DNA of 64,000 bases from Spirochaeta africana DSM 8902 (GCF_000242595.2 NC_017098.1:124001-188000); one strand, 5' to 3'. Shown: positions 23,627 to 42,544, counted from the first letter of the stretch. Made by a program: numbers and translations. Notes: a model not told the origin generated them from the sequence alone.

Positions 23627-23655
23627 TTGACAGCAGAGAAGGTGCGTGTTTTACT
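23627..23655 (+). promoter_or_regulatory. sigma70 promoter of the ABC importer/isomerase operon
   Basis: Perfect TTGACA (23627-23632), 17-bp spacer, TTTACT (23650-23655). The -10 box and start point are overlapped by operator A. Confidence 0.65.
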
Positions 23656-23675
23656 TACTTATAGAAAGAAACTAA
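23651..23675 (+). promoter_or_regulatory. operator A: candidate ROK repressor site
   Basis: Dyad TTACTT-N5-AAGAAA at 23655-23671 inside a 25-bp block that matches operator C (29704-29728, other orientation) at 20 of 25 positions by my count. It covers the -10 box and the start point, so binding should repress. Ends 11 bp before the start codon. Confidence 0.65.
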
Positions 23676-23686
23676 GGAGGGAGCGT

Positions 23687-24946
23687 ATGGGTACGTCACG
23701 ATGGCTGCTGATGGCAGCGGCGGTGGTGTTGGTGTTTTCGCTTGCGACCGGTTGTGCCGGGGATGCTGACGAGGAGATTGTGCTGACATGGCCAAGTATC
23801 TGGGTTGGTCAGGACTCCAAGGCCGAGGCGGTCGAGCAGATTGTCAACGAGTTCAACGAGGAGCATGCCGGTTCCATCCGGGTGGTTATCGAGCCGCAGT
23901 ATGATTACGACGGCTACGAGGATACAATCCGCACCCGACTGGCAGCCCGGCAGGTGCCGGATATTTTTACCTTTAAACTGAGTCCGACTACCGCTGCCTA
24001 TTACGAGGGTGATCTGCTGATGGATCTGACCGATGCGCTGGCCGGCGGCTGGGGAGATGACTTTAATCAGGGCAATATCGATGCCTCGACAATCAATGGA
24101 GCTACCAAGTCGCTGCCCTATGAGATCGGGCTGACCCCGGTATGGTATAACCAGCGGCTGTTTGAGCAAGCCGGAATCAGTGAATTCCCGCGCACTATAG
24201 ATGATTTCTGGGCGGCGGCTGATGCATTGAAGGCAGAGGGGATTGTGCCGACCAGTCAGATGACCGGGGGTACCAATGCCTGGACCAGCATGCTGTGGTA
24301 CACCCATCTGGTGGGCAGTTTTGGCGGGCCGAATGCCTGGGACCGACCCTGGGATGATCCGGTGTTTGCCGATGCCGCGGCGGTACTGAAGCAGATGTAC
24401 CAGGATGGCAATACTACCCGCGATGCAATCGGTGCCGATGCCGGGGTATCCGGTGGGCACTACATGAACGAGCGTACCGCCATGTTTATCAACGGCCCCT
24501 GGTTTATCGGTAACATCCGTGACAACGCCCCGGCAGCGTACGAGGCCACCGCCCTGGCACCGGCTCCGCAGGCTGGTGACTACCACGGGCATCAGGTGGG
24601 CTGGCTGCATGCAAACCTGGCGGCGGCTCACACAACGGACGAGGCTCGCCGTGACGCCGTGATCACCTTTTTACAGTATTTTACCAGTCCGGAGAACGCC
24701 AAGCGGGTATCTTTGAGCTCGGGCTCACTGGTGTCGATCGAGTTCGAGGTGGGGCCGGATGATGATGTTGACCCGCTGCAGCAGGCCTTTATCGAGGCGG
24801 GTAACCAGTCGACATTTCTGATTGATCATCTGGAGGCCAGCAAGAGCTCCACAGTGGTGGCCGAGTTTGGCCAGGCACTGGGGCAGATGGTACTGGAGGA
24901 TCTGTCGCCACAGGAGTTTGTAGCAATGCTGCGGGATGCCGAGTAA
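23687..24946 (+). CDS. ABC transporter sugar-binding lipoprotein
   Basis: A 419-aa family-1 extracellular solute-binding protein. ATG at 23687 follows AAGGAGGG. Signal peptide with lipobox SLATGC puts the lipidated Cys at 23. The body is typical: LTWPSIWVGQDSKAEAVEQIVNEF, VPDIFTFKLSPTT, GLTPVWYNQRLFEQAGI, MTGGTNAWTSMLWY, AMFINGPWFIGNIRD. It feeds the two permeases downstream. Operator A and the neighbouring isomerase suggest sulfoquinovose or a sulfoquinovosyl glyceride as ligand; this is inference from context, and ordinary sugars cannot be excluded. Confidence 0.88.
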   Translation: MGTSRWLLMAAAVVLVFSLATGCAGDADEEIVLTWPSIWVGQDSKAEAVEQIVNEFNEEHAGSIRVVIEPQYDYDGYEDTIRTRLAARQVPDIFTFKLSPTTAAYYEGDLLMDLTDALAGGWGDDFNQGNIDASTINGATKSLPYEIGLTPVWYNQRLFEQAGISEFPRTIDDFWAAADALKAEGIVPTSQMTGGTNAWTSMLWYTHLVGSFGGPNAWDRPWDDPVFADAAAVLKQMYQDGNTTRDAIGADAGVSGGHYMNERTAMFINGPWFIGNIRDNAPAAYEATALAPAPQAGDYHGHQVGWLHANLAAAHTTDEARRDAVITFLQYFTSPENAKRVSLSSGSLVSIEFEVGPDDDVDPLQQAFIEAGNQSTFLIDHLEASKSSTVVAEFGQALGQMVLEDLSPQEFVAMLRDAE

Positions 24947-24959
24947 GCGCACCCAGAAC

Positions 24960-24999
24960 AGCCGTCGTGCCGCTATACGGTACGGCGGCTTTCTTTTCT
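24960..24999 (+). terminator. terminator-like attenuator hairpin after the binding-protein gene
   Basis: Near-perfect 13-bp stem (24960-24972 with 24978-24990, two mismatches) and 5-base loop, followed by a T-rich tail TTTCTTTTCT. It lies between the binding-protein and first permease genes, where partial termination would give the usual excess of binding protein. Confidence 0.6.
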
Positions 25000-25028
25000 G
25001 CGGCGTCTGCCGCCGGTCGGAGACCACC

Positions 25029-25928
25029 ATGAAGAAGAACCTGCATTTCAAGAATCGTAATCTGCGCTGGATCGTGCTGTTCCTGCTGCCGATCGCGCTG
25101 CTCTACGGTGCCTTTTTTATCTATCCGCTTGTTTCCCTGGCGGTGATCAGCATGATGGAGTGGAACGGGATTTCCGCCATGGAGTTTGTGGGGCTGGACA
25201 ACTTCCGGCACTTGTTTGCCCATTCCACCTTTCAGACGTCGATTCGCAACAATGTGATCTGGGCACTGTCGGCCTCGCTGCTGCAGATACCGTTTGCCCT
25301 GGTCGTGGCAATGGTGCTGGCACGGGCGCCCCGGGGCTGGCGGTTTTTCCGGACGGTGTTCTTTCTGCCAAACGTAATATCGCTGGTGGCCCTGGCAATG
25401 CTGTGGCGGGCCATGTACAACCCCGAGTTCGGGGTGATCAACAGCTTTCTGGAGGCGGTGGGGCTGGAGCACCTGACCAGAAACTGGCTGGGTGAGCTGA
25501 ACACCGCCCTGCCGGCACTGATCATTTCCTACCAGATCTATGTCGGCTATTTTATGGTGATTATTCTGGCCGGGGCTATGTCGATTCCCAAGTCGCTGTA
25601 CGAGGCGGCGATGCTGGATGGCGCCAATGTGATTCAGCAGGAGGTGTACATCACCCTGCCGGTAATCCGGGGGATTATCGTGACCGCGGGGACCCTGGCG
25701 GTGGCGTTTGCGCTACGGCAATTTGAAACCACCTTCCTGATGACCGGCGGCGGGCCGGCCAATCGCACCCCGGTAATGGGGTTGTTTATGTACCGGCGTA
25801 TGGCAGGGCTGCAGTACGGCCTGGCCGCGGCTACCGGGGTGGTGTTGATTATTGTCGGGGTGGTGGTGCTTACCGCGCTCAAACAGACGGTGGGGCGCTC
25901 GGATCCGATCGAGGATATGAAGCAGTAG
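25029..25928 (+). CDS. ABC sugar permease, MalF-like
   Basis: A 299-aa inner-membrane permease with about six helices. ATG at 25029 (MKKNLHFKNRNLRWIVLFLL) is chosen because upstream in-frame sequence includes the attenuator hairpin and lacks membrane character. The EAA loop EAAMLDGANVIQQEVYITLP near 196-215 contacts an ATPase. No ATPase gene is present in this cluster, so a shared MsmK/UgpC-type subunit encoded elsewhere is implied. Second gene of the operon. Confidence 0.9.
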   Translation: MKKNLHFKNRNLRWIVLFLLPIALLYGAFFIYPLVSLAVISMMEWNGISAMEFVGLDNFRHLFAHSTFQTSIRNNVIWALSASLLQIPFALVVAMVLARAPRGWRFFRTVFFLPNVISLVALAMLWRAMYNPEFGVINSFLEAVGLEHLTRNWLGELNTALPALIISYQIYVGYFMVIILAGAMSIPKSLYEAAMLDGANVIQQEVYITLPVIRGIIVTAGTLAVAFALRQFETTFLMTGGGPANRTPVMGLFMYRRMAGLQYGLAAATGVVLIIVGVVVLTALKQTVGRSDPIEDMKQ

Positions 25929-25940
25929 GAGGTCAGCAGG

Positions 25941-26795
25941 ATGAAAAATGCAGTGAATCAAACCCCGATCCCGGTTGTCTATGGGAGCCTGGCGCTGAAG
26001 TGGGGGTTGCTGATCGGCTATACCGTAGTGGCACTATTTCCGCTGATCTGGCTTACGGTGTCGGCGTTCAAGACCAACCTCGAGATTCAGATAGCCCCGT
26101 TTGCCCTGCCGGAGACCTGGCAGTATCGTAACTTTATCAACGCGATTACGATCTCCGGTCTGCCGCGCTACTTTCTGCATTCAGCGATTGTAGCGACCCT
26201 GGCTACCGGGCTGAATCTGCTGGTTACCTCGATGGCGTCGTTTGTGATTGCCCGCGAACGGTTTCTGCTGCGGCGGGTGATATTTATCATGATAACTGCC
26301 GGGGTGCTGGTGCCGATCGTGGCATTTATGGTGCCGTACTACACCCTGATCACCCGTTTGCGGCTGTATGACACCCTGTGGGCGTTGATTGTGACCTATG
26401 CAGCGATCAACATCCCGATATCGGTGTTTCTGATTACCAGCTTTATGTCTACCATTCCACGCGAGCTAGAGGACTCGGCGGCCATTGACGGCTGCAGTTT
26501 CTGGCAGCGCTACTCCCGGATAATCCTGCCGCTGTCGCGGGCCGGGCTGGTGACAGCGGCCACCTTCAGTTTTATCTACTGCTGGAACGAGTTCGTGTAT
26601 GCCTTGTTGCTGACCTCCTCGCGGAGTGCGCGCACGGTACAGCTGGCAATCCGCTTTTTTACCAGTCAGTTTCGAACCGATTATGCCGGGATGTTTGCCG
26701 CAATTGTGCTGACCATGGTGCCGACGGTTTTGGTGTACACCCTGCTGCATGACAAGATCATCTCCGGATTGACCGCCGGGGCCGTGAAAGGCTAG
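25941..26795 (+). CDS. ABC sugar permease, MalG-like
   Basis: A 284-aa permease 12 bp after its partner, with AGGAGG upstream. About six helices. EAA motif EDSAAIDGCSFWQRYSRIILPL near 178-199. It ends LTAGAVKG, typical of the MalG/UgpE side of CUT1 importers. It forms the heterodimeric channel with the preceding permease. Confidence 0.9.
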   Translation: MKNAVNQTPIPVVYGSLALKWGLLIGYTVVALFPLIWLTVSAFKTNLEIQIAPFALPETWQYRNFINAITISGLPRYFLHSAIVATLATGLNLLVTSMASFVIARERFLLRRVIFIMITAGVLVPIVAFMVPYYTLITRLRLYDTLWALIVTYAAINIPISVFLITSFMSTIPRELEDSAAIDGCSFWQRYSRIILPLSRAGLVTAATFSFIYCWNEFVYALLLTSSRSARTVQLAIRFFTSQFRTDYAGMFAAIVLTMVPTVLVYTLLHDKIISGLTAGAVKG

Positions 26796-26817
26796 TTGCT
26801 GACACAAGGAGCTGCAG

Positions 26818-28242
26818 ATGAACAACACACAACCACAGATATGGCCGGCAGCGCGCACTGCCGGGGTGATTCAGGACCCGAAGGTCGGGCTGATGATTAT
26901 GGGACGCAAGCGCCCGGGGTTCGACCCTGAATGGGGCGCGGCTGTTCGTCGGGCGGTACAGGGGTACCTGGAGGGACTGCCGTTCGGGTTGACCGTGCCG
27001 TCGGATAATATTGCTGACGAGGCTGAGCTGCAGCGGGCGGTCGAGGTTTGCCGGACTGCCGGGGTTACGGTGATGCTGCTGGTACAGCCGACAATCTCGG
27101 ATGGGAGGCTGGCACCGATGCTGGCGCGGCTGTGGCAGCGACCGCTGCTGCTGTGGGCGACTACCGAGAAGCCCGGGGTGAGCAGTATAAGTGCCAACTC
27201 GCTCGTCGGAACCCATGTGATGGCGGCCACCCTGCGACAGCTGGGGCATCCGCTGGAGCTGGTGTTCGGGCATCCGGAGGATCATGAGGTCTGCAACCGG
27301 GTCGAGCAGTCGATCCGTGCGGTGCATGCTGCCGACAGTCTGCAGCGGCGTAAACTGGGGCTGGTGGGATATCATGCCCCGGGGTTTGTGGATTTCCATG
27401 CCGATCCGGTGTTTCTGCAGCAGCAGCTGGGCTCCCAGCTGTATCATCTGAACACCCCTGAGCTGATGGATATGGTTATGGCCTATACGAATCAGGAGCT
27501 CGAGGACGAGTGTGCAGCTTTTCTGGCATGGCAGCTGCCGGTGGCGCGGTCGGCGCAGGCTGCCGGTTTTTCTGCAGACGCCAGGCAGGAGCTGCTGTTC
27601 CAGGCCCGTTACTATCGGGCGTTTCGCGATCTGTTCGATCTGGAGGGGTTCGATGCCATGGCGTTTCGCTGCTGGCCGGATCTGCCAACGGTTCTGGGGC
27701 ACTGGCCCTACGCGGCTCTGGCGCGGCTGGTGTCCGAGGGGTTTCCGATTGCGATGGAGGGTGATGTTGACGGGGCGTTGTGTTCGCGGCTGGCCGAGAG
27801 TGCCGGGATGGGGCCGGTGTATCTGTCCGACTGGCTGGAGCATACCGCCGACAGCATCACGATCTGGCATACCGGTGCGGCCCCGCTGCAGCTGGCCAGA
27901 CCGGCAGGGGTGCCCGGCGGTCCGGAGCTGGGGGTGCAGTTTAACAACAAAAAGCCGACGGTTATCGAGTCGACCATTCGTTCAGGTATGAAGGCAACCC
28001 TGTTCCGTTTGTGGCGCTGCGGTGGGGGTTATCGAATAACCGCGCTGGAGGGTGAGACAATCGACCCTGCACGGCATATCGAGGCTACCAACGGGGTGTT
28101 TTCTACCGACCGGGTCGATGTACGGCGCTGGTTTGAGGATATGGTGCAGCTGGGCATGCCGCATCATGTCTGTCTGGTCGAGGGGCATGTCGGGGACACC
28201 CTGCGCCGGATTGCCCGCATGATCGGTGCTGCCTGGGTGTAG
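26818..28242 (+). CDS. L-fucose/arabinose-isomerase-like protein, putative sulfoquinovose isomerase
   Basis: A 474-aa cytoplasmic protein after AAGGAGC, last gene of the ABC operon. The fold matches L-fucose isomerase-family proteins: VGLMIMGRKRPGFD early, FDAMAFRCWPDLPTVLG, MEGDVDGALCSRLAESAG (metal-ligand region), a late IWHTGAAPLQLA and a C-terminal MPHHVCLVEGHV. SqvD/SftI-type sulfoquinovose isomerases belong to this kind of aldose isomerase (recalled knowledge). Expected reaction: SQ to 6-deoxy-6-sulfofructose, feeding the transketolase operon across the ROK gene. It could act on another aldose; the operator shared with the transketolase promoter is the main argument. Confidence 0.75.
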   Translation: MNNTQPQIWPAARTAGVIQDPKVGLMIMGRKRPGFDPEWGAAVRRAVQGYLEGLPFGLTVPSDNIADEAELQRAVEVCRTAGVTVMLLVQPTISDGRLAPMLARLWQRPLLLWATTEKPGVSSISANSLVGTHVMAATLRQLGHPLELVFGHPEDHEVCNRVEQSIRAVHAADSLQRRKLGLVGYHAPGFVDFHADPVFLQQQLGSQLYHLNTPELMDMVMAYTNQELEDECAAFLAWQLPVARSAQAAGFSADARQELLFQARYYRAFRDLFDLEGFDAMAFRCWPDLPTVLGHWPYAALARLVSEGFPIAMEGDVDGALCSRLAESAGMGPVYLSDWLEHTADSITIWHTGAAPLQLARPAGVPGGPELGVQFNNKKPTVIESTIRSGMKATLFRLWRCGGGYRITALEGETIDPARHIEATNGVFSTDRVDVRRWFEDMVQLGMPHHVCLVEGHVGDTLRRIARMIGAAWV

Positions 28243-28284
28243 CCGGCGCCAGCACGGGTCAGATGTCGCGTTATCAGGCCAGGA

Positions 28285-29502
28285 TCACCTGGTTCCCGGC
28301 TGGCCGGGATTCTCCTGGATGTCGGTGCCGGCGGCCAGCTCCGGGCGGCAGTGAAAAAACTCCCGGAACACGATGTCGGTGGCGCCATAACAGGCCTGCA
28401 CCGGGTCGTACACCATCGGCAGCAGCCTGCTTTCCGGGAGGACTGCGCGAGCAGAGTCTTCCAGAAACCTCGAGAGTGCCGGAAAGCGGGAGATCAGCAG
28501 AACCGCATCGGGGTGAAAGATGTGGTAGAGGTTGCGCACCGTGGTGGCGAATGCCAGCTGCTCCTCATGCAGGGCGCTGTTTATTTCGGCCGGCGAGAGA
28601 CGGCTGTCGGCTTCATTCCAGTCACCAACCGCGTAGCGCTGCTGTAGGCGGTTCAGCAGGGGGGCTTCGGCCACCATCGATTCCAGGGTGGCGCTGTCGG
28701 CCAGCAGCTGCTCGGGTGTGCAGGGGCTGGGGCTGGTGCTGCCGATCTCCAGCGCGGTGGTGCTGCCGTTCAGGAAGATCTCGCCGCCCTTGACCAGTGC
28801 GCCCCCGATCCCGGAGCGCACCAGGATAGCAAGCACACTGCGCTCCTCGCGTGCGCAGCCGTAATGGTATGCGCTGGAGGCGATTACCGAGGCGTTGTTG
28901 TGCACATGTACCGGAACCTCGAAGCGCTGTTCCAGGCGCTCCTTGATGGAGTAACCGCTCAATCCCTTGATGCGTGCATAACGCTGAACCCGCCCGGTGG
29001 CGGTGTCGACCACCCCCGGTGCTGCCACACCGATGCCGAGCAGGGCCTCTTCGGGGAGCCTGCTGTCCTGCAGGGCGGTCTGCAGCAGCTGTTCGAGGAT
29101 CTCCATGACCTGTTCGCGCTCGCTGATACCGGATAATTCCATACTGTTGCGATAGATCACGGTGTTGGAAAAATCCACTGCGATGACAGCTGCGCCCAGA
29201 CTGGAAAAATCGATCCCCAGGGCGTATCCGGAGGTGGGGTTAACACAGTACAGGTTGGGGCGTCGCCCTTTGCGATCCGGGGGGATCCCCTGGTCGATGC
29301 TGGCGCTGTCCTCGCACTGGCTGATAAACCCGGCCTCGCTGAGCTTGGCGAAGATCCGGAAAACAGTAGGTGCTTTCAGGCCGGTGTGTTTGACCACCAT
29401 GGACTGGGAAATAGTGCCGTGCTGAAAGGCCAGCTGAAGTATCAGGCGCTCGTTGTTGAGCCGAATGTCGGTATGTCGGATCGGTCTGCGTTTCATGGGC
29501 AT
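28285..29502 (-). CDS. ROK-family transcriptional repressor
   Basis: A 405-aa regulator. N-terminal winged HTH (NNERLILQLAFQHGTISQSMVVKHTGLKAPTVFRI). ROK domain from about residue 88 (GYALGIDFSSLGAAVIAVD, GIGVAAPGVVDTATGRV). The kinase Asp of the usual NDANAAA motif is Asn here (VHNNASVIAS), and the zinc CxCGxxGC motif is absent (only SPSPCTPEQLL), so it should bind sugar without phosphorylating it. Starts at 29502 or 29496. Operator B abuts the start codon, implying autorepression. It lies between the two operons it is proposed to control and converges on the isomerase gene. Confidence 0.9.
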   Translation of the reverse strand: MPMKRRPIRHTDIRLNNERLILQLAFQHGTISQSMVVKHTGLKAPTVFRIFAKLSEAGFISQCEDSASIDQGIPPDRKGRRPNLYCVNPTSGYALGIDFSSLGAAVIAVDFSNTVIYRNSMELSGISEREQVMEILEQLLQTALQDSRLPEEALLGIGVAAPGVVDTATGRVQRYARIKGLSGYSIKERLEQRFEVPVHVHNNASVIASSAYHYGCAREERSVLAILVRSGIGGALVKGGEIFLNGSTTALEIGSTSPSPCTPEQLLADSATLESMVAEAPLLNRLQQRYAVGDWNEADSRLSPAEINSALHEEQLAFATTVRNLYHIFHPDAVLLISRFPALSRFLEDSARAVLPESRLLPMVYDPVQACYGATDIVFREFFHCRPELAAGTDIQENPGQPGTR

Positions 29503-29519
29503 TTTCTTTCGTTAAGTAA
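29503..29519 (-). promoter_or_regulatory. operator B: ROK autoregulatory site
   Basis: TTTCTT-N5-AAGTAA, matching the 17-bp core of operator A at 15 positions. It starts directly at the ROK start codon and overlaps the -10 box on the minus strand. Confidence 0.62.
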
Positions 29520-29544: not shown

Positions 29545-29589
29545 TTGACGATGCTACGGGGTGCCGGCGGAGCCGGGGCAGGCGGAAAC

Positions 29590-29670: not shown

Positions 29671-29699
29671 TTTACAGCCTATCCGGGCTGTGCTACACT
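29671..29699 (+). promoter_or_regulatory. sigma70 promoter of the sulfoglycolysis operon
   Basis: TTTACA (29671-29676), 17-bp spacer, TACACT (29694-29699) with an extended TGC just before the -10. Followed at once by operator C. Confidence 0.7.
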
Positions 29700-29703
29700 C
29701 TCT

Positions 29704-29728
29704 TTAGTTATTTTCAGTAAGAAAGTAA
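29704..29728 (+). promoter_or_regulatory. operator C: candidate ROK repressor site
   Basis: Dyad TTATTT-N5-AAGAAA at 29709-29725, inside GTTATTTTC-N5-GAAAGTAAC (29707-29729; one mismatch between arms). It covers the predicted start point of the transketolase operon. Confidence 0.65.
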
Positions 29729-29759: not shown

Positions 29760-30599
29760 ATGACAGCGAACGAAATTCGTGAGTTGCAGCAGAAGGCCGT
29801 CGAGATACGTCGGCTGACTGTGGATGAGATAGCACACCTGGGCGTCGGGCATGTTGGCGGCAGTATGTCGGTGGTAGAGATTCTGACCCTGTTGTACTAC
29901 CGGCACTTGCGGGTAAACCCGGCCGAGCCGCGTGATCCGAAGCGCGACAAGCTGGTGATGTCCAAGGGACATGCCGGACCGACACTGTATGCAATCCTTG
30001 CCGATAAAGGTTTTTTCCCGAAAGAGATGCTGCATACCCTGAATCAGGGGGGCACCAATCTGCCAAGCCATTGTGACATGAATCGGACTCCGGGGATCGA
30101 TATGACAACCGGTTCCCTTGGCCAGGGGCTTTCGGCGGCCATCGGGATTGCGCTGGGGCATCGGCTGCAGCAGCTGCCGGGACGAATTTTTGCGCTCATT
30201 GGCGACGGCGACCTGAATGAGGGGCAAACCTGGGAGGCTGCAATGTCGGGAGCGATGTTCGGGGTTACCAATCTGGTGGCCTTCGTGGACTACAACAAGA
30301 TGCAGATTGACGGCCCGATCGACTCGGTCATGAAGACCGGTCAGCTGGCGCAGCGCTGGGAGAGTTTCGGCTGGCACACCCAGCAGGTGAACGGGCATGA
30401 TTTTGCCGAGCTGGATGCAGCGCTGGAGGCTGCCCTGGCACAGTCCGAGCGCCCGGCCATGATTATCGCGGATACGGTCAAGGGCAAGGGTCTGCCGTTT
30501 GCCGAGGGCGACTACAAAAATCATAACATGCCGATTACCGATGAACAGGCGGCAGAGGCCTACGCGGCCCTGCAGCAGGAGATGGAGGCACTGTCATGA
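29760..30599 (+). CDS. sqwG: transketolase N-terminal subunit, putative 6-deoxy-6-sulfofructose transketolase
   Basis: A 279-aa half-transketolase carrying the thiamine-diphosphate site: GDGDLNEGQTWEA (148-160) through VDYN (N179). Active-site histidines are H31 (GHVGGS), H71 (SKGHAG) and H104. The last lies in NLPSHCDMNRTPGID, where ordinary N-terminal subunits read GHPDM, so the sugar-binding edge differs. First gene of the 11-gene operon, overlapping its partner by 4 bp. In the known sulfo-transketolase pathway SqwGH moves C2 units from sulfofructose, and again from sulfoerythrulose, to glyceraldehyde-3-phosphate, giving xylulose-5-phosphate. Role assigned from context; enzyme family is certain. 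Confidence 0.85.
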   Translation: MTANEIRELQQKAVEIRRLTVDEIAHLGVGHVGGSMSVVEILTLLYYRHLRVNPAEPRDPKRDKLVMSKGHAGPTLYAILADKGFFPKEMLHTLNQGGTNLPSHCDMNRTPGIDMTTGSLGQGLSAAIGIALGHRLQQLPGRIFALIGDGDLNEGQTWEAAMSGAMFGVTNLVAFVDYNKMQIDGPIDSVMKTGQLAQRWESFGWHTQQVNGHDFAELDAALEAALAQSERPAMIIADTVKGKGLPFAEGDYKNHNMPITDEQAAEAYAALQQEMEALS

Positions 30600-31564
30600 A
30601 ATACAAGATAACACGAGCACAGGCAGCTGAGGGTGTCGAGATGCGCGCGGTATACGGTGAGTGTCTGCTGGAAATGGCGGCAAAGGATGAGCGGATAGTG
30701 GTGCTGGATGCGGATCTGATGCGCGCCAACGGGACGGTGGTGTTTCGGGAGGCCTATCCCGAGCGGACATTCGATGTCGGGGTGGCCGAGGCCAACATGG
30801 TCGGGATATCGGCCGGGCTGTCGGCAGCCGGATTAATTCCGTTTCCGGCAAGTTTCACCTGTTTTGCCGCTCGGCGCACCTTTGACCAGTTTTTTATCTC
30901 TGCCAATTATGCGCAGCTGAATGTAAAACTGACCGGTACCGATCCCGGGGTGGCAGCAGCCTTTAACGGCGGGACACACATGTCGTTCGAGGACATCGGG
31001 CTCATGCGGACCATTCCGGGGCTGTTGATATGCGAGCCGAGCGATCCGGTAAGCCTGGCCCGGCTGCTGCCGCAGATTGCAGCCCGGTACGGATCGAGCT
31101 ACCTGCGGCTGCATCGCAAGCCGATTGTCCCCATCTACGACGAGGACGAGCAGTTTGAACTGGGCAAGGGTAAGCTGGTGTGCGAGGGCAGCGATCTGAC
31201 GATTGTAGCTGCCGGAGCGATAATGGTTGCCGAGGCAATCGAGGCGGCCGAGGTGCTGGATTCTCGTGGGATATCGGCAGCGGTAATCGATATGCACACG
31301 ATCAAACCGATAGATGCCGAGCTGCTGCTGCAGCAGGCCAGAAAAACCGGTGCGGTGCTGACCGCCGAGAATCACCAGATTATGGGTGGGCTTGGCAGTG
31401 CGGTGGCCGAGGTCCTGGTTGAGGGATATCCCGTGCCGATGCAGCGTATCGGGATTCAGGATGAGTTTGGCGAGGTCGGAACCCAGGGCTATCTGCAGAA
31501 GCGCTTTGGACTGACGGCCGATCGGGTTGCCGCAGCTGCCGAGCAGCTGGTGGCACGCAAGTAA
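30596..31564 (+). CDS. sqwH: transketolase C-terminal subunit, putative sulfofructose transketolase partner
   Basis: A 322-aa second half, starting within the ATGA of sqwG. The pyrimidine-binding domain has the essential Glu65 in VGVAEANMVGISAGL, followed by the FTCFAARRTFDQF segment. The C-terminal transketolase domain ends near GLTADRVAAAAEQLV. The split two-gene form resembles both DXPS-like transketolases and known SqwGH pairs. It makes the active site together with the N-terminal subunit. Confidence is high for the family and moderate for the sulfonated substrate. Confidence 0.85.
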   Translation: MKYKITRAQAAEGVEMRAVYGECLLEMAAKDERIVVLDADLMRANGTVVFREAYPERTFDVGVAEANMVGISAGLSAAGLIPFPASFTCFAARRTFDQFFISANYAQLNVKLTGTDPGVAAAFNGGTHMSFEDIGLMRTIPGLLICEPSDPVSLARLLPQIAARYGSSYLRLHRKPIVPIYDEDEQFELGKGKLVCEGSDLTIVAAGAIMVAEAIEAAEVLDSRGISAAVIDMHTIKPIDAELLLQQARKTGAVLTAENHQIMGGLGSAVAEVLVEGYPVPMQRIGIQDEFGEVGTQGYLQKRFGLTADRVAAAAEQLVARK

Positions 31565-33475: not shown

Positions 33476-33494
33476 GCAAAGACAAGGAGCTGTT

Positions 33495-34721: not shown

Positions 34722-35602
34722 TGAGCATTTTTGTACAAAAGAACACCCGTATTCTGGTTCAGGGCATTACCGGTAAGGAAGGCAGTTTCTGGACCAATCA
34801 CATGATCGAGATGGGGGCCCGGGTTGTTGCCGGGGTTACCCCCGGCAAGGAGGGTGAGCAGATACACGGGGTGCCGGTCTATCACACCGTGAAACGGGCC
34901 TGTGCTGCGGTTCGACCGGATGCGGCAATGCTGTTCGTGCCGGCCCGCTTTACCAAAGATGCGGTCTTCGAGGCGCTGGATGCCGGTATTCGCCGGATCG
35001 TAACCATTGCCGACGGGATCCCGCTGCATGATCAGGTGGCGATCCGGGCGGCGGCGGTTGCAGCCGGGGCCCAGGTCGTGGGCGGTAACACCTCCGGAGT
35101 AATCTCGCCTGGGGTTTCGATGATGGGCATCTTCCCGTACTGGATTGATCGGGTCTACAAGCCCGGTCGTATCGGGGTCATGACCCGCTCCGGCTCACTT
35201 ACCAACGAGGTCACCTCGATGATCGTGCGCGGAGGCTACGGGGTATCGACCCTGATCGGGGTAGGCGGGGACCCGGTGCCGGGAACCAGATTTGCCGAGT
35301 TTCTGCCGGAGTATGAGCGCGATCCGGACACCGACGCGGTGGTGATTGTGGGTGAGCTTGGCGGCACCATGGAAGAAGAGGTCGCCCAGGCAATTGCAGA
35401 CAAGCGCTTTACCAAGCCGATGGTGGCCTTTATTGCCGGACGCACCGCACCCGCCGGCAAGAAAATGGGGCATGCCGGGGCGATTGTTACCGGCGGTACC
35501 GGCTCGGTAGCGGATAAAACATCGGCGCTCACCGAGGCCGGCGGGTATGTCGCCATGCGACCGCGGCTGGTGGGCGAACTGTTGCGGGAGGCGCTGGCAT
35601 GA
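34721..35602 (+). CDS. sqwL: ADP-forming acyl-CoA ligase alpha subunit, putative sulfoacetate-CoA ligase
   Basis: A 293-aa SucD-like protein starting on the last base of the preceding stop (TAATG). CoA-binding loop QGITGKEGSFWTNHM (residues 14-28) and the phosphorylated His251 (KKMGHAGAIVTGG) are intact. The region that in SucD reads GPNCPGxITPG is GGNTSGVISPG here (121-131), and RSGTLTYE is RSGSLTNE. These changes lie in the CoA/acyl site region and support an acid other than succinate. It is coupled to the DASS transporter gene by a 4-bp overlap. Confidence 0.82.
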   Translation: MSIFVQKNTRILVQGITGKEGSFWTNHMIEMGARVVAGVTPGKEGEQIHGVPVYHTVKRACAAVRPDAAMLFVPARFTKDAVFEALDAGIRRIVTIADGIPLHDQVAIRAAAVAAGAQVVGGNTSGVISPGVSMMGIFPYWIDRVYKPGRIGVMTRSGSLTNEVTSMIVRGGYGVSTLIGVGGDPVPGTRFAEFLPEYERDPDTDAVVIVGELGGTMEEEVAQAIADKRFTKPMVAFIAGRTAPAGKKMGHAGAIVTGGTGSVADKTSALTEAGGYVAMRPRLVGELLREALA

Positions 35603-37062
35603 GCGGCATCGAAAAACAGAGCTCGCTGCGCCGGCAGTACTTCTTTCTGGCCCTGGCCTGTCTGATACTCCTGGCGATGGTGCTGGTTCCCATGCCGGAG
35701 TCAATCACCCAGGTGGATAATGCCGAGCTTACGCCTGCCGGGCAGATCGCCATGGGGGTACTGCTGTTTGCCCTGGTGCTGTGGATTACCGAGGTCATCC
35801 CGTTTCATATTACCGGGCTGATGGCGGTGATCCTGCTGGCGCTGCTGCAGGTAGACACCTTCCAGGAAATCGTGATGATCGGGTTCGGGAATCATATCGT
35901 GGTGTTTTTTATCGGGGTGCTGACCCTGTCGGCCTTTATTACCCACTCCGGTCTTGGCAAGCGAATCTCGGTATTTCTGCTGTCAAAAACCGGCAACAGC
36001 ACCGCCATGATCCTGCTGGGATTTCTGACTGCCGGTGCCCTGCTGTCGATGTGGATTACTGACATGGCCGTGGCGGCGATGCTGATGCCGCTGGGGGTGT
36101 CGATCCTGCGCGAGGAAGGGCTGAAGCCCCTGAAAAGCAACTTCGGGCGGGCCCTGATGATCTCCTGCTGCTGGGGGCCAACGATCGGCGGGATCGGGAC
36201 CCCCGCTGGAGCGGGGCCCAACCCGATTGCGATACAGTTTATGGCCGATATGGCCGGTATCAATGTCTCGTTTATCGATTGGATGAAGTTTGGTGTGCCG
36301 TCCGCGCTGCTGCTGCTGCTGCCGTCCTGGGGACTGCTGCTGCTGTTTTTCAAACCTGAGTTGAAGCGCCTGACCCGTACCAGCGAGGAGCTGCGCGAGG
36401 AGTTTCGCAAACTCCCGCCGATGGAGCAGGAGGAAAAAACCACCCTGGTGCTGTTTGTGCTGACGGTTATCCTGTGGCTTACCACCCCGCTGTGGGAGCG
36501 GCTGCTGGGGATTCCCATCCCGATCTCCCTGCCGGTCATGCTTACCGGCTGTCTCTTCTTTCTGCCGGGGCTGACCGGTATCAGCTGGAAAGAGGTACAG
36601 GGAGAGATCTCCTGGAGCGGGATCCTGCTGATCGTAACCGGGATCTCTCTGGGGATGATGCTCTACCGGACCGGCGCTGCCAACTGGCTCTCGGTGGTGC
36701 TGCTTGGCGGGATAGGCGGGCTGGGGCGCTATCTGCAGATATTTTCGATTGTCCTGATCGTATCGTTTCTCAAGGTGGCCTTCTCCAGCAACACCGTAAC
36801 CGCGACCATCATCATTCCGATCATGATTGCCCTGGCGCAGAATCTGGGGCTGGATGTGGCCGCAATCACCATTCCGGCCGGGCTTACCGCCTCGATGGCG
36901 TTTATCCTGGTTACCTCTACCCCGACCAATGTGATCCCGTACACCGCCGGCTATTTCTCTATCAAGGATCTGGCGATCGCCGGCATTGCGATGACGATTG
37001 TGTCATCGTTTATCCTGGCGCTGGTAATTATGGTGGTATTGCCGATTTCGGGGTTATCATGA
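35599..37062 (+). CDS. DASS (SLC13)-family anion transporter
   Basis: A 487-aa inner-membrane protein with about 11-12 helices. Signature motifs of divalent-anion symporters are SSNTVTATIIIP (about 396-407) and the TPTNVIPY near 447-454. The first substrate motif region reads TPAGAGPNPIA. The family carries dicarboxylates, sulfate and related anions. Located directly after the ligase genes, it is a candidate for sulfoacetate release or for uptake of a sulfonate or counter-anion; direction cannot be read from sequence. Confidence 0.85.
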   Translation: MSGIEKQSSLRRQYFFLALACLILLAMVLVPMPESITQVDNAELTPAGQIAMGVLLFALVLWITEVIPFHITGLMAVILLALLQVDTFQEIVMIGFGNHIVVFFIGVLTLSAFITHSGLGKRISVFLLSKTGNSTAMILLGFLTAGALLSMWITDMAVAAMLMPLGVSILREEGLKPLKSNFGRALMISCCWGPTIGGIGTPAGAGPNPIAIQFMADMAGINVSFIDWMKFGVPSALLLLLPSWGLLLLFFKPELKRLTRTSEELREEFRKLPPMEQEEKTTLVLFVLTVILWLTTPLWERLLGIPIPISLPVMLTGCLFFLPGLTGISWKEVQGEISWSGILLIVTGISLGMMLYRTGAANWLSVVLLGGIGGLGRYLQIFSIVLIVSFLKVAFSSNTVTATIIIPIMIALAQNLGLDVAAITIPAGLTASMAFILVTSTPTNVIPYTAGYFSIKDLAIAGIAMTIVSSFILALVIMVVLPISGLS

Positions 37063-37089
37063 TGAGCATGTGGCCCGCAGGCGGTGCCC

Positions 37090-37824
37090 ATGCCTGAGCT
37101 GGCAGTACTGGGGCTGATCTACGGAACCGCTGGCCTGCTGCAAGGGGTGGTGGGATTCGGCTTTGCCCTGCTGTCGGTACCGCTGGTGGCCGGGATCTAC
37201 GATCTGCCGACCGCGGTAATCATGAACACCGTGGTGGGAACCGCCAACTGTGCCTACAAGGCCTGGCTGCTGCGCGAACAGGCCGAGTACCGGCTGGTGC
37301 TGCAGTTCTTTGCGGCGGCAAGCCTGGGGGTGCCGGTCGGGGTGCTGGCGATCAGCCGGGCTGCCCACGGCCCTGCCATGATCGGTCTGGGCCTGTTTGT
37401 GATTGTGGTGGCCGCAGCCAACCTGCTGTCCCGGGAGGGTGTTGGCGTGGCAATGCGCCGCAGCGAAGGCTTCTGGCTGCTGGCAGGGCTGACCGGGTTG
37501 TTTGCCGGTGCCTTCAGTACCCCGGGGCCAGCAGCGGTGCCCTACTTTGTCGGGCGATCATCGCGAGTGGAGTCGGCCAAGGCAAACCTGCAGGTCTTTT
37601 TTACCCTGGCAGCGCTGCCGGTAATTGTGTTCCATAGCGCCGCCGGGAATATGTCGGCGACGGCGCTGGCGCGGGCAAGCCTGTTTCTTCCGCTGGTGCT
37701 GCTTCTGACCTTTGCTGGTACCCGGGCTGCGCGGCTGCTGCGGGCAGACCGGCTGCGTCGGGTGGTAGATGGCGGGCTGATCGCCCTTGGCGCATATCTG
37801 ATACTGGAGCAGCTGGCTAGGTAG
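37090..37824 (+). CDS. TauE/SafE-family permease, putative sulfonate exporter
   Basis: A 244-aa membrane protein with about eight helices. Start ATG 37090 or GTG 37084. Motifs typical of TauE/SafE: GLIYGTAGLLQGVVGFGFALLSVP in the first repeat and GLTGLFAGAFSTPGPAAVPYFVGR in the second. TauE proteins accompany sulfonate pathways as exporters of sulfite or C2/C3 sulfonates. Here sulfoacetate is the predicted cargo. 27 bp after the DASS gene. Confidence 0.83.
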   Translation: MPELAVLGLIYGTAGLLQGVVGFGFALLSVPLVAGIYDLPTAVIMNTVVGTANCAYKAWLLREQAEYRLVLQFFAAASLGVPVGVLAISRAAHGPAMIGLGLFVIVVAAANLLSREGVGVAMRRSEGFWLLAGLTGLFAGAFSTPGPAAVPYFVGRSSRVESAKANLQVFFTLAALPVIVFHSAAGNMSATALARASLFLPLVLLLTFAGTRAARLLRADRLRRVVDGGLIALGAYLILEQLAR

Positions 37825-37829
37825 CTGCA

Positions 37830-37861
37830 GCAGCGGGTGGCGGCGTAGCCAAACCCGCTGC
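37830..37861 (+). other. intercistronic hairpin between TauE and GPH genes
   Basis: Perfect 9-bp arms GCAGCGGGT and ACCCGCTGC around a 14-base loop, with no T run. It may mark RNA processing or stabilise one half of the long transcript. Confidence 0.5.
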
Positions 37862-37882
37862 GCCGGGTAAAAGGAGCGGATG

Positions 37883-39790
37883 ATGCAGGATGGACACGGT
37901 ACAGAACAGCTGCCTGGCGGGGACGCACGGCCAAACGGCAGCAGGGCCGAACGGCCGGTACGGGTAAGAAATCTATTGGCCTATGGCATCGGGGACTTTT
38001 ACGGCGGCGGCTCGTTTCTGATTATCGGCATGCTGTTCATGTTCTTCCTTACCGAGGTCGTGGGACTGTCGCCGATCTGGGCGGCGTTCGTGTTTGCTGT
38101 CGGTAAGGTCTGGGATGCGGTTTCCGATCCGATCATGGGCTATATCTCCGACAATACCCGCAGTCGCTATGGCCGACGGCGCTTCTATCTGGTGCTGGGA
38201 ATTCTGCCGGTATTCATATCCTTTGGGTTGCTGTGGCTCCCGATCACCCTGGAGACTGCTGCCTGGTCGGTGGTGTACTACAGCTTTGCCTATATCTTTT
38301 TCAGTACGGTTTTTACCATGGTGATGGTTCCCTATTCGGCACTGAACGCCGAGATGACGGCCGACTATGCGGTTCGCACCCGGCTGTCCGGGGTGCGTAT
38401 CATCTTTTCCCAACTGGCGGCCCTGTTTGCGGGCACCATCCCCAACATGATCATCCAGGCTTTTCGCCGACCCGCAGCTGCCGCCGCCGAGGTACTTGCC
38501 GGGCTGAAACAGACCGCCGCGGCAGCTGCAGCCGGCGACCCGGTGCGGCTCGATGAGCTCGCAGGGGAGCTGCAGCAGGCACAGGCAGCCCTGGCAGAGG
38601 GCGGGCTGGCTGCTGGCGCAGCTGGTGCAGAAAACGGCAGCCGGCTGATGCGGCTGCTGCCGCAGCGTTTCAGCGAGTTCGCCGATCGCGTCCCGGAGAT
38701 CATCGGGGAGCTCGGGGTGCTGCAGCAGCGCCTGGCAGGAGCAGCGAACTCCGCCGAGGGCACTGCTGCTATCGCCGCCGAGGCAGCGGCAGTGCAGGGA
38801 TACCTGTCGGGTGTTATCCCGCAGGCCGAGGCCGGGCTGCGGGCAGCCAGTCAGCTGGGCTACTTTACTATGGGTCTGGTGTTCGCACTGCTGTATGCCC
38901 TGCCGTGGATCGTGGTGTTTCTGGGAACCTGGGAGCTGCCGTACGAGCGCAGCCAGCCGCGCTATAACAGCCCGCTGGATGTGTTCGGCAACTTTCGCAC
39001 CATCTTTGTGAACCGTTCATTTCGGGTGCATATCGGGATGTATATCTGCGCCTATACCGCCATGGATGTGGTAATGGCCCTGTTTGTGTACTACCTCACA
39101 TTCAGCCTGCGGCAGCCAGGGTGGTATCCGATTGCTATGGGCTCGCTGCTGCTTACCCAGATCGCGATGCTTCCGGTGTATGTTACCATCGCGAACCGGA
39201 AGGGAAAGGGCTTTGCCTATCGAATGGGTCTCAGCCTGTGGGCAGTCGGGATGGGACTGGCCTTTCTGCTGACGCCGGACTCCTCGATAGCAGTACTGGC
39301 ACTGAGCTGCGTGGTCATCGGGTCGGGGTTGTCGGCCGGGGTTATGATACCCTGGGCAATTCTGCCGTCCATAACCGATGTTGACGAGATGATTACCGGG
39401 CAGAAGCGGGCCGGTACCTATGCGGGGGCAATGACCCTGGTGCGTAAACTGGTACAGGGACTGGTAGCGATGCCGCTGGTTGGCATCGCACTGCAGCAGA
39501 TCGGTTTTGTAAGCGGTCTGGGGGCCCAGAGCCCGGAAACCCTGTTCCGGCTAAAGCTGCTGTTTTTGGCTGCTCCGCTTGCAATTCTGATAATCGGGGT
39601 GGTGACTTCCCTGAGATTCCGGATTACTCCCCATACCCATGCGGTCCTGCGTGCAGAACTGGCGCGTCGCAGCGCCGGGGGAAGCGGAGACGAGGTAAGC
39701 AGTGAGACCCGTGAGATCCTGGAAGGATTGACCGGTCTGGAATATAGCAAGCTTTACCAGCAGCAAGGGAGGCCACATGCTGAGGATTGA
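37883..39790 (+). CDS. GPH/MelB-family sugar symporter with large periplasmic insertion, putative sulfoquinovoside importer
   Basis: A 635-aa secondary transporter; ATG 37883 (or 37880) follows AAGGAG. GPH hallmarks: YGIGDFYGGGSFLIIGMLFMFFLTEVVGL, DAVSDPIMGYISDNTRSRYGRRR, MVMVPYSALNAEMT and LPSITDVDEMITGQKRAGTYAGAM. Typical members have about 450-480 residues. The excess is an Ala/Glu/Gln-rich segment of about 140 residues (about 195-335) between helices 5 and 6, a loop predicted to face outward. It overlaps the sulfoquinovosidase gene by 14 bp, as E. coli yihO-type symporters neighbour yihQ, so sulfoquinovosides are the likely cargo. Confidence 0.85.
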   Translation: MQDGHGTEQLPGGDARPNGSRAERPVRVRNLLAYGIGDFYGGGSFLIIGMLFMFFLTEVVGLSPIWAAFVFAVGKVWDAVSDPIMGYISDNTRSRYGRRRFYLVLGILPVFISFGLLWLPITLETAAWSVVYYSFAYIFFSTVFTMVMVPYSALNAEMTADYAVRTRLSGVRIIFSQLAALFAGTIPNMIIQAFRRPAAAAAEVLAGLKQTAAAAAAGDPVRLDELAGELQQAQAALAEGGLAAGAAGAENGSRLMRLLPQRFSEFADRVPEIIGELGVLQQRLAGAANSAEGTAAIAAEAAAVQGYLSGVIPQAEAGLRAASQLGYFTMGLVFALLYALPWIVVFLGTWELPYERSQPRYNSPLDVFGNFRTIFVNRSFRVHIGMYICAYTAMDVVMALFVYYLTFSLRQPGWYPIAMGSLLLTQIAMLPVYVTIANRKGKGFAYRMGLSLWAVGMGLAFLLTPDSSIAVLALSCVVIGSGLSAGVMIPWAILPSITDVDEMITGQKRAGTYAGAMTLVRKLVQGLVAMPLVGIALQQIGFVSGLGAQSPETLFRLKLLFLAAPLAILIIGVVTSLRFRITPHTHAVLRAELARRSAGGSGDEVSSETREILEGLTGLEYSKLYQQQGRPHAED

Positions 39791-41822
39791 GACAAGTGAA
39801 ACTGGCTGCAATGTATGGTTTCGCGGGAAGCTGATACTGCAGCACTCCGCCAGAAAACCGGCGATCGAACTGGGGATTGGCACAGCCGATTTTCCTGAAC
39901 GATTCGGGATGTTTCGGATCCGCGAAACGGCCCGGGATATCAGACCGCTGGCCAGGGTGCAGGTGCTGCAGCAGGATGACACCACGGCGACCCTGCGTTT
40001 CGGGGATGCCCTGAGCCTCAAACTGCAAGTTATCGATGAGCGGCTGCATGTCCACCCGGAGGGGTATGATCCGGAATGCAACCGGTTTGTACTGCGAATG
40101 CCGTCGGATCGCGATGAGCACATCTATGGCTGTGGAGAGCAGTACTCGCGCCTTGATCTGAAAGGGAGCCGTGTGCCGCTGTTCGTACAGGAGCAAGGGG
40201 TCGGGCGCGGCAAGGATCTGATCACCCTGCTGGCGAATCTCTCGCATGGTGCCGGCGGCAATCACTTTACTACCTATTTCCCCCAGCCTACCTATGTGAC
40301 CTCTCGGAATTTGTTCTTTCATACCGATGCCTCGGCCTATGCGGTGTTCGACTTTCGTCGTGCCAACCGGAGTTCGCTGGAGTTCTGGCAGGTGCCGAAC
40401 GAGATTGTTATTGGTGCCGGCGACAGCATGGCAGAGGTTCTCGGAAGTCTGACCCTGTTATTGGGCCGCCAGCCGCAACTGCCGGACTGGACCTGGGATG
40501 GGGTCTGGCTGGGGGTGCAGGGCGGTACCGAGGTTGTACAGCAGAAGCTTGACTCGGCTCGCGAGGCCGGGCTGCGTGTCGGTGCTGTCTGGGCCCAGGA
40601 CTGGGAGGGTCGGCGGATCACCAGTTTTGGCAAACAGCTGCGGTGGAACTGGCGCTACGATAACGAGCGGTATCCCGATCTGCCTGGCTATATTCAGGAA
40701 CTGCAGCGCGACGGGATCCGGTTTCTGGGGTATATAAATCCCTTCCTGGCGATAGGTACCACCAATACCGAGGAGGGACCGGTCCCGCCAGAGTTTTTCT
40801 ACAACGAGGCCCGGGACAAGGGGTACTGTGTAAAACACCCGGATGGTTCAGATTACTATACCTATGTAACCACCTTTCCGGCTGCAACCCTTGATCTGAC
40901 GAATCCGGAGGCCTTTGCCTGGATAAAAGGGATTATCAAGCGGGAGATGATCGGCATCGGGCTGAGCGGCTGGATGGCTGATTTCGGCGAGTACTTTCCG
41001 ATCGACAGCACCGTGAAATCGGGAGAGAACCCGGAGCTGGTGCATAACCGGTTCCCGGCTCTGTGGGCCAAAGCCAACTACGAGGCGCTGGAAGAAACCG
41101 GCAAGCTTGGCGAGGTGGTATTTTTTATGCGCTCCGGGTTTACCGGCTCTTCCCGCTGGTCGACCAGTAACTGGGCTGGTGACCAGCTGGTGAACTGGAG
41201 TATCCACGACGGGCTTGCCAGTGTAATACCTGCGGGCTTGTCGCTGGGGTTTTGCGGGGTCGCCAATTTCCATTCCGATATAGGCGGGTACACAACGGTA
41301 GCCTACGTCAAGCGGCGCAAAGAGGTGTTTATGCGCTGGGCCGAACTGGCTGCCTTTACGCCGACTATGCGCACCCACGAGGGGAATCGACCGGATGACA
41401 ACTGGCAGTTCGACAGCGATGCCGAGACACTCCAGCATTTTGCCCGGATGTCGGCGGTATTTACCCGACTCAAGCCATACCACATCCGGCTGAGCGAAGA
41501 ATACCAGCAGCGGGGCATTCCTATGCTGCGCCACTGTGGGCTTATGTATCAGGACGATCCCGTTTGTCACCGTCTGCAGTATCAGTTTATGTATGGCAGC
41601 GATCTGATGGTCGCACCGGTTATACGGAAGGGGCAGCGCCATGTACGCTGCTACCTGCCGCAGGATGACTGGATACATCTCTGGACCGGACGCAGGCTGC
41701 AGGGGGGACGGCACCATCGAATCGCTGCACCTATCGGTAAGCCGGCTGTTATGTATCGCGCCAACTCGGAGTTTGCCTCGCTGTTTGCCGGTATTAGCCA
41801 TACTGACAGGGAGGTAGAATGA
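39777..41822 (+). CDS. yihQ: sulfoquinovosidase (GH31, YihQ type)
   Basis: A 681-aa cytoplasmic GH31 enzyme. ATG follows GGGAGG. Catalytic nucleophile Asp402 (GWMADFGEYFP) and acid/base Asp469 (NWAGDQ). Sulfonate-recognition residues known from E. coli YihQ (Arg301, Trp304, Tyr508) have matches: RWNW gives Arg289 and Trp292, and Tyr505 lies in HSDIGGYTT. The 67- and 36-residue spacings from nucleophile to acid/base to Tyr equal those of YihQ as I recall it. This separates it from ordinary alpha-glucosidases. It releases sulfoquinovose from sulfoquinovosyl glycerol or diacylglycerol. It is the strongest single pointer to the pathway. Confidence 0.92.
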   Translation: MLRIETSETGCNVWFRGKLILQHSARKPAIELGIGTADFPERFGMFRIRETARDIRPLARVQVLQQDDTTATLRFGDALSLKLQVIDERLHVHPEGYDPECNRFVLRMPSDRDEHIYGCGEQYSRLDLKGSRVPLFVQEQGVGRGKDLITLLANLSHGAGGNHFTTYFPQPTYVTSRNLFFHTDASAYAVFDFRRANRSSLEFWQVPNEIVIGAGDSMAEVLGSLTLLLGRQPQLPDWTWDGVWLGVQGGTEVVQQKLDSAREAGLRVGAVWAQDWEGRRITSFGKQLRWNWRYDNERYPDLPGYIQELQRDGIRFLGYINPFLAIGTTNTEEGPVPPEFFYNEARDKGYCVKHPDGSDYYTYVTTFPAATLDLTNPEAFAWIKGIIKREMIGIGLSGWMADFGEYFPIDSTVKSGENPELVHNRFPALWAKANYEALEETGKLGEVVFFMRSGFTGSSRWSTSNWAGDQLVNWSIHDGLASVIPAGLSLGFCGVANFHSDIGGYTTVAYVKRRKEVFMRWAELAAFTPTMRTHEGNRPDDNWQFDSDAETLQHFARMSAVFTRLKPYHIRLSEEYQQRGIPMLRHCGLMYQDDPVCHRLQYQFMYGSDLMVAPVIRKGQRHVRCYLPQDDWIHLWTGRRLQGGRHHRIAAPIGKPAVMYRANSEFASLFAGISHTDREVE

Positions 41823-42544
41823 GCCCTGAACTCAGCCTTCTTGAACGAGTCCAGCAGGAGAACCCCGACCGCCAGCTGCTGGCGGTGCACCATGCCGACT
41901 TTGCCCCCTATGGTCGAGTGCTGGGCGGGCTGTCTGCCGCAGAGGCATTGGCGTCGGCCCAACAGATGATCACATTTCCCGAGCAGGGGGTGCAGTATCT
42001 GCGCTCGGTTGCGGAACTGGAACGCCTGCCACTGCGAGGTGAGCTTGAATCGCAGGTCTTTGGCGGAATGCCGATACAGCTGGGCTGGTGTATCGGGACC
42101 AACCAGGTGCTGAATGCCCTGGAGTTTCACAAGAGCAGTGAGGTGATAATTGCCGGCAGCCCGGTGGTGCTGGTTTTGGGGCACCGCCATGACATTCGCG
42201 ATAACCGGTATGCACTGGAGCAGGCAGCGTGTTTCTATCTTCCTGCCGGCACGGCGGTCGAGCTGTATGCGGAGTGTCTGCATTTCGCCCCGATTGGTGC
42301 CGCCGCTGGTCCATTCCTGACTTTGATAGCACTTCCGGCAGGGACCAACGCCCCCCTCGAGGGTCAGTCAACGCCGCCGCTTCCTGCCGGTGACCAGGGC
42401 GCTGGAGCCAGCGACGAACAGCAGCTGCTGTGGCAGTGCAACAAATGGCTGCTGGCGCAGCCGGGGTCACCACAAGCAGAGCAGGGGGCTCATGTCGGCC
42501 TGACGGGCAGCCAGGTAAGGATTCAGCCGGTGGGTAGCCTGTAA
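41819..42544 (+). CDS. DUF4867-like protein, role in sulfoglycolysis unknown
   Basis: A 241-aa cytoplasmic protein coupled to yihQ by ATGA. Central part is cupin-like: LGWCIGTNQVLNALEFHKSSEVIIAGSPVVLVLGHRHDI then ACFYLPAGTAVELYAECLHFAP, with His and Glu residues placed as possible metal ligands. The C-terminal 60 residues are low-complexity. It resembles DUF4867 proteins, which occur in sugar-utilisation clusters. No YihR-type mutarotase is encoded here, so an anomerase or accessory isomerase role is a testable guess. Last gene of the operon. Confidence 0.72.
   Translation: MSPELSLLERVQQENPDRQLLAVHHADFAPYGRVLGGLSAAEALASAQQMITFPEQGVQYLRSVAELERLPLRGELESQVFGGMPIQLGWCIGTNQVLNALEFHKSSEVIIAGSPVVLVLGHRHDIRDNRYALEQAACFYLPAGTAVELYAECLHFAPIGAAAGPFLTLIALPAGTNAPLEGQSTPPLPAGDQGAGASDEQQLLWQCNKWLLAQPGSPQAEQGAHVGLTGSQVRIQPVGSL

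Follow-up and report, generated by a model that had tools for sequence, protein, structure and literature searches.

A putative ROK-controlled locus for sulfoquinovose fermentation by the oxidative sulfo-transketolase pathway in Spirochaeta africana

The stretch of Spirochaeta africana DSM 8902 DNA analyzed here (the window; 64,000 nucleotides, GCF_000242595.2 NC_017098.1:124001-188000, with positions counted from its first base) contains, at 23,655-42,544, two operons arranged around a gene for a ROK-family regulator. Their products belong to the families expected of an oxidative sulfo-transketolase (sulfo-TK) pathway, by which sulfoquinovose (SQ), a sulfur-containing sugar found in the lipids of plants and algae, would be fermented to sulfoacetate. 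Every gene named in a preliminary description of the locus is present, open, and intact, as judged by family profile matches, and the features are as follows.

23627-23655, + strand: predicted sigma-70-like promoter of operon 1 (TTGACA at 23627-23632, 17 nt, TTTACT at 23650-23655)
23655-23671, + strand: ROK operator-like dyad TTACTTATAGAAAGAAA (one mismatch to TTACTTWYAGWAAGTAA), which overlaps the operon 1 promoter at its -10 end
23687-24946, + strand: solute-binding protein (SBP_bac_1) of an ATP-binding cassette (ABC) transporter (Pfam PF01547, 1e-31)
24936-25928, + strand: ABC permease 1 (PF00528, 3e-10)
25941-26795, + strand: ABC permease 2 (PF00528, 7e-19)
26818-28242, + strand: SqvD-like ketol isomerase (SqvD1), proposed to convert SQ to sulfofructose (NCBIfam SftI, 158 bits; fold and motifs)
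28285-29502, - strand: transcriptional regulator of the ROK family, proposed to repress both operons (PF00480, 8e-18; MarR-like helix-turn-helix)
29503-29519, - strand: weaker operator-like site with 2 mismatches, directly adjacent to the ROK start
29671-29699, + strand: sigma-70-like promoter of the sqw operon (TTTACA, 17 nt, TACACT)
29708-29724, + strand: ROK operator-like dyad preceding sqwG (TTATTTTCAGTAAGAAA; two mismatches to TTACTTWYAGWAAGTAA)
29760-30599, + strand: SqwG, N-terminal, thiamine pyrophosphate-binding half of a split transketolase (PF00456, 2.5e-52)
30596-31564, + strand: SqwH, C-terminal half of the split transketolase (PF02779, 1e-33; PF02780, 1e-30)
31582-32073, + strand: SqwI, altered RpiB-family isomerase, proposed to act on 4-deoxy-4-sulfoerythrose (PF02502, 1e-37)
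32069-33475, + strand: SqwD, putative CoA-acylating sulfoacetaldehyde dehydrogenase (NCBIfam SauS, 526 bits, cutoff 600)
33492-34721, + strand: SqwK, SucC-like ligase subunit (PF08442, 9e-47; sucCoAbeta, 294 bits)
34721-35602, + strand: SqwL, SucD-like ligase subunit (PF02629, 9e-23; PF00549, 1e-18; sucCoAalpha, 330 bits)
35599-37062, + strand: DASS-family anion:sodium symporter, possible sulfoacetate exporter (PF00939, 2e-55)
37084-37824, + strand: TauE/SafE-family exporter (PF01925, 7e-21)
37880-39790, + strand: GPH-family sugar:cation symporter, possible importer of SQ or SQ-glycerol (PF13347, 7e-71)
39777-41822, + strand: YihQ-like GH31 glycosidase with the pocket QQQWY instead of QQRWY (PDB 5aed, 4e-205)
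41819-42544, + strand: SqvB/SftX, a DUF4867 cupin metalloprotein (PF16161, 4e-69; PDB 9gyy, 2e-37)

Two points differ from the first description. The TTG at 23627, previously read as the start of the first open reading frame, is part of the TTGACA -35-like hexamer, and the frame begins at the ATG at 23687, which is preceded by a GGAGG site; the operon 1 promoter itself was not picked up by a stricter consensus scan. The original gene list for 23627-42544, otherwise accurate, left unnamed the last gene, encoding SqvB/SftX. This protein conserves the four metal ligands of Bacillus megaterium SqvB (Glu, His, Glu, and His in the solved structure [PMC11968277]) and shows no notable difference from that family, whose members have already been described in sulfo-TK clusters (PMC11968277, PMC9594981).

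The two operons share a 17-bp operator-like dyad, TTACTTWYAGWAAGTAA, which emerged from a comparison, among close relatives, of the DNA preceding sqwG and the ABC gene, and the two main copies either overlap the sigma-70-like promoters or sit just downstream of them. At up to two mismatches, TTACTTWYAGWAAGTAA occurs in the window only at 23655-23671 and 29708-29724 (0.00 expected). A widened form, TTAYTTWYAGWAAGWAA, has exactly two matches at up to one mismatch in the 3.29-Mb genome, before the two operons, against zero for a control pattern; this genome count is partly circular because both sites helped to define the widened form, a circularity from which the window count with the narrower TTACTTWYAGWAAGTAA is free. 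Across 80 related loci (1.21 Mb), there are 107 dyad sites, compared with 0 to 2 in simulations, and 100 of the 107 lie within the 300 bp preceding a pathway gene; the genes concerned include those for SqvD1, SqvD2, the ABC transporter, SqwG, ROK, and SqwD. Because this operator is common to the sqw genes, it places the ABC importer and the divergent isomerase in the pathway independently of homology. The ROK gene is conserved beside sqwG in related loci, and its product is the putative binder of the dyad.

These 80 loci came from one scan with an SqwI alignment and are nearly all from Spirochaetota, with seven from Chloroflexota; plasmids yielded no relative of SqwI at the limit used. Genes were assigned by homology-guided calling, as longest-frame calls at high G+C content gave antisense artifacts. 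The nearest named loci belong to Spirochaetaceae genomes, including that of Alkalispirochaeta alkalica. The order sqwG-H-I-D-K-L-DASS recurs among the related loci, with a DASS gene after sqwL in most of the SqwD type, and the order sqwH-sqwI-sqwD-sqwK is found both in most of the 80 named loci and in further spirochaete genomes, indicating that this grouping of genes is not due to chance. In the window, the split SqwGH adjoins the RpiB-like SqwI, and SqwD and SqwKL occur in the cluster without SqwF. Gene content, synteny, trees, and the shared operator thus uphold the initial assignments of a sulfo-TK pathway with an SqwD/SqwKL branch, of a spirochaete host, and of a lineage-specific version.

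We consider it probable, at roughly 80%, that the locus constitutes a single ROK-repressed regulon for the uptake and fermentation of SQ or SQ-glycosides by the oxidative sulfo-TK pathway. This reading is based on gene families, synteny, the shared operator, and active-site features, from which we infer every reaction, substrate, and transport role, the binding by ROK, and the product. SQ or SQ-glycerol would be imported by the ABC carrier, the GPH carrier, or both; the YihQ-like GH31 enzyme would release SQ, and SqvD1 would turn it into sulfofructose. SqwGH would then transfer C1-C2 to glyceraldehyde-3-phosphate, leaving 4-deoxy-4-sulfoerythrose, which would be isomerized by SqwI and enter a second SqwGH round to yield sulfoacetaldehyde and a second xylulose-5-phosphate. 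Sulfoacetaldehyde would be converted by SqwD to sulfoacetyl-CoA with formation of NADH, and SqwKL would release sulfoacetate with formation of ATP, which by pathway bookkeeping amounts to one calculated ATP per SQ. Sulfoacetate would then leave the cell through either DASS or TauE.

Several observations weigh against this reading. In the GH31 glycosidase, the position of Escherichia coli Arg301, which is Arg in all solved sulfoquinovosidases, is occupied by Gln287, and in the GH31 tree the enzyme lies outside the clade of characterized sulfoquinovosidases, among Gln types. SqvD1 is only 22 to 28% identical to the isomerases of other sulfo-TK loci and scores 158 bits against NCBIfam SftI (NF048012), far under the cutoff of 700. 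The NCBIfam SauS score, tried as a discriminator for SqwD, failed in that role: dehydrogenases from other contexts score equally high, and those of sulfo-TK operons are not separated from them. Finally, the genome contains no family match to transaldolase or phosphoketolase, with control genomes giving matches, so that calling the locus "complete" had been too strong. In consequence, xylulose-5-phosphate needs another route; phosphofructokinase and aldolase may recycle it by way of sedoheptulose phosphates, as is known in some anaerobes, and three genes of the phosphofructokinase family are present in the genome.

The GH31 enzyme is a full-length relative of YihQ (E. coli, PDB 5aed), in which window residues Asp402, Asp469, Gln274, Trp290, and Tyr505 correspond to Asp405, Asp472, Gln288, Trp304, and Tyr508; the catalytic nucleophile and acid/base (Asp405 and Asp472) are therefore both kept. 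In YihQ, Arg301, Trp304, and Tyr508 are the residues of the sulfonate pocket, and the pocket signature as a whole reads QQRWY in E. coli, KERWY in Ensifer, and QQQWY in the window. The original designation as a YihQ-type sulfoquinovosidase accordingly stands for the family and the catalytic residues but not for the Arg301 position or for membership in the known clade. Arg enzymes form one clade with those of E. coli and Ensifer (SH-aLRT [Shimodaira-Hasegawa-like approximate likelihood ratio test] support of 98), and a small Arg group (L150 and L152 to L154) is placed among the Gln types. Besides the window enzyme, those of ten related sulfo-TK loci have Gln at this position. For those sulfo-TK loci that the SqwGHI tree includes, Arg and Gln follow a deep division of that tree without exception (12/12 versus 11/11, counts that are not independent events because the loci are related by descent), and the SqwD tree shows the same split. 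No Gln-type GH31 pocket was found reported in the open-licence literature, which is weak evidence of novelty.

A substitution of Arg by Gln in this pocket could mark a shift in substrate, in which case the Gln-type half of the loci would represent a parallel transketolase cascade for another C6-substituted hexose (for example, 6-deoxy or 6-O-sulfated) that ends in a different C2 aldehyde or acid. The presence of Gln in the window and the ten related loci, its coincidence with the SqwGHI and SqwD splits, the occurrence of some Gln-type relatives in spirochaete genomes outside sulfo-TK loci, and the sulfatase genes that adjoin some loci of the Gln half (L046) all speak for such a cascade. Against it, the window enzyme retains the other pocket residues (Gln, Gln, Trp, and Tyr), TauE is present, and SqwD, SqwKL, DASS, SqvB, and the operator are common to both halves, Arg and Gln; this sharing makes a Gln pocket that still binds sulfonate likelier than one for another substrate. 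We regard the shift to another hexose as unlikely, and SQ as the likeliest substrate, even with a glycosidase that lacks one defining residue.

Several related loci contain Gfo/Idh/MocA-family genes, which in some cases adjoin yihQ; those of L041, L080, and L106 (handles of this form denote individual related loci) may encode GH188-type NAD-dependent sulfoquinovosidases.

The isomerase SqvD1 belongs to a small clade of its own, sharing about 58 to 67% identity with most members and 40% with the outlier L032, and the branch leading to this clade is long (about 5 changes per site; support, 100/100). Low scores against NF048012 are also obtained for the isomerases of other sulfo-TK loci that were tested (187 to 338 bits). 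RCWP, E-x-D, W-H, and a C-terminal His are invariant in 32 isomerase sequences, including SqvD1. An AlphaFold2 model of SqvD1 (predicted local distance difference test score [pLDDT], 93) has its best PDB match in L-arabinose isomerase (template modeling [TM] score, 0.80 to 0.83), followed by L-fucose isomerases, so that an arabinose/fucose-isomerase fold with FucI/AraA-type motifs is predicted. Among 393 spirochaete genomes, close relatives (>30% identity) occur in only three, all of which have an sqw cluster; by these sequence comparisons, the clade is very divergent and lineage specific. SqvD1 is therefore a putative SQ isomerase of the cluster, with the fold, the catalytic motifs, and the shared operator on one side and a low identity to the other pathway isomerases and a score under the family cutoff on the other.

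Nine loci that lack SqvD (L064, L068, L075, L080, L086, L090, L092, L093, and L100) encode a cupin of the KduI/IolB family (PF04962), which is present in 0 of 34 SqvD-bearing loci (Fisher P of about 0.009, without correction for kinship). A separate pathway operator precedes the cupin gene by 33 bp in L064 and L092. This protein is a candidate replacement SQ isomerase on the evidence of its distribution; a search of the S. africana genome found no KduI/IolB isomerase, and no title or abstract in the open-licence literature proposes KduI or IolB as an SQ isomerase, again weak evidence of novelty.

The closest NCBIfam family to SqwD is SauS, and the SqwD proteins of sulfo-TK operons, including those from loci with canonical Arg-type sulfoquinovosidases, form one clade with support of 100. 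SauS acts on sulfoacetyl-CoA in aerobic sulfoacetate users, and DASS carriers are often importers, both of which would suit a scheme in which SqwD, SqwKL, and DASS run mainly in reverse, so that sulfoacetate would be imported and reduced alongside the use of SQ. This direction is very unlikely: the genes immediately follow sqwI within the sqw operon; an ADP-forming ligase favors ATP gain; and the locus showed no sulfoacetaldehyde acetyltransferase, a genome-wide search not having been made.

The ends of the pathway vary among the 37 related loci that have at least 8 kb of sequence on either side: 19 have SqwD with SqwKL, 7 have SqwF, 3 have SqwKL without SqwD, 3 have an aldehyde:ferredoxin oxidoreductase, and 5 have none of these. 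In L034, L058, L062, L064, L080, and L109, SqwKL and DASS directly follow SqwI with no SqwD in the locus, and in L046, L048, L050, L061, and L089, the available sequence contains SqwGHI without SqwD, SqwKL, or SqwF, with sulfatase-like genes near L046 and L048. The aldehyde:ferredoxin oxidoreductase genes occur in Anaerolineae/Chloroflexi loci (L052:7486-9327, L063:12883-14718, L070:12878-14737, and L097:12881-14725) with the arrangement SqvD-SqwG-H-I-GH31-aldehyde:ferredoxin oxidoreductase-TauE and no SqwKL or SqwF in the operon. From this arrangement, the oxidoreductase is a possible third end of the pathway, one that would reduce ferredoxin; its pairing with sulfoacetaldehyde was not found in the open-licence literature (weak evidence that it is new). 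L052 has, on the other strand at 10173-14161, a second cassette with an SqwD-like dehydrogenase (51%), an RpiB-like protein, and a split transketolase (37 to 39%). It appears to be a paralogous transketolase pathway adjoining the sulfo-TK operon, and its SqwD-like copy falls outside the sulfo-TK SqwD clade.

SqwI is the only RpiB-family gene product of the genome. The RpiB catalytic Cys is kept in 80 of 81 SqwI sequences (one is unreadable), but the equivalents of RpiB His10 and His99 are absent from all 81, with Leu, Lys, or Arg and Ile or Val at these positions and never His; SqwI thus lacks two of the three residues (Cys, His10, and His99) expected of an RpiB ribose-5-phosphate isomerase. 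This loss would fit an acyclic sulfosugar, since in RpiB the furanose ring is opened by the residue at the His99 position, and that ring cannot form in 4-deoxy-4-sulfoerythrose, which has no O4. That SqwI might double as the ribose-phosphate isomerase of the cell was considered and dropped once RpiA was found encoded elsewhere in the genome, which makes SqwI dispensable in that role. The genome also has one further transketolase, full length, at 3156630, with SqwG as the only other Transketolase_N match. Although the protein families are the same, it is highly improbable that SqwGH and SqwI are ordinary pentose-phosphate enzymes (a second transketolase and a ribose-phosphate isomerase) beside unrelated sugar genes, given these housekeeping copies, the missing histidines, and the conservation of gene order, SqwD clade, and operator as a unit.

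The locus is real and well defined and holds a mostly known pathway in lineage-specific form. A pathway with the same enzymes has been published (PMC12890257, PMC9594981), and its sulfoacetate variant was described in Acholeplasma (Chu et al. 2023, as summarized in PMC12890257 and PMC11659671). The core was therefore known before, and PMC12890257 lists Spirochaetes, Firmicutes, and Tenericutes as carriers of this variant; the unusual features of the present lineage are its divergent isomerase and Gln-type GH31. The window shares with Acholeplasma the enzyme set and step order (SqvD-SqwGH-SqwI-SqwD-SqwKL, with SqwD/SqwKL replacing SqwF) and differs from its published description in the isomerase clade, the Gln-type GH31, the ABC and GPH importers, the presence of DASS plus TauE, and a defined operator. 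What it has in common with the isethionate variant of Clostridium sp. MSTE9 (SqwF/SqwE) is SqwGH, SqwI, and the opening half of the route, but the window locus has no SqwF-like iron alcohol dehydrogenase, a protein present in 17 of the 80 related loci. The isethionate variant has been published for Sphaerochaetaceae (PMC13219744), and no report of a sulfo-TK pathway in S. africana was found in the open-licence literature, although this is weak evidence of novelty. From the sequence comparisons, the new elements are the operator dyad and its distribution, the loss of His in SqwI, the Gln-type GH31 with its matching splits, and the divergent isomerase clade.

Production of SQ is on the gigaton scale, and on its anaerobic fate depends which C2 or C3 sulfonate is supplied to sulfide producers. 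With this locus, a spirochaete lineage that has cultured relatives joins the likely producers of sulfoacetate. The operator supplies an objective definition of the regulon across about 80 loci and exposes the Gln-type GH31, the divergent isomerase clade, and the KduI/IolB-like cupin.

Among the transporters, the GPH symporter (37880-39790) has an Ala-rich central insertion of about 125 amino acids, and its homologues in L046, L050, and L088 are without this insertion.

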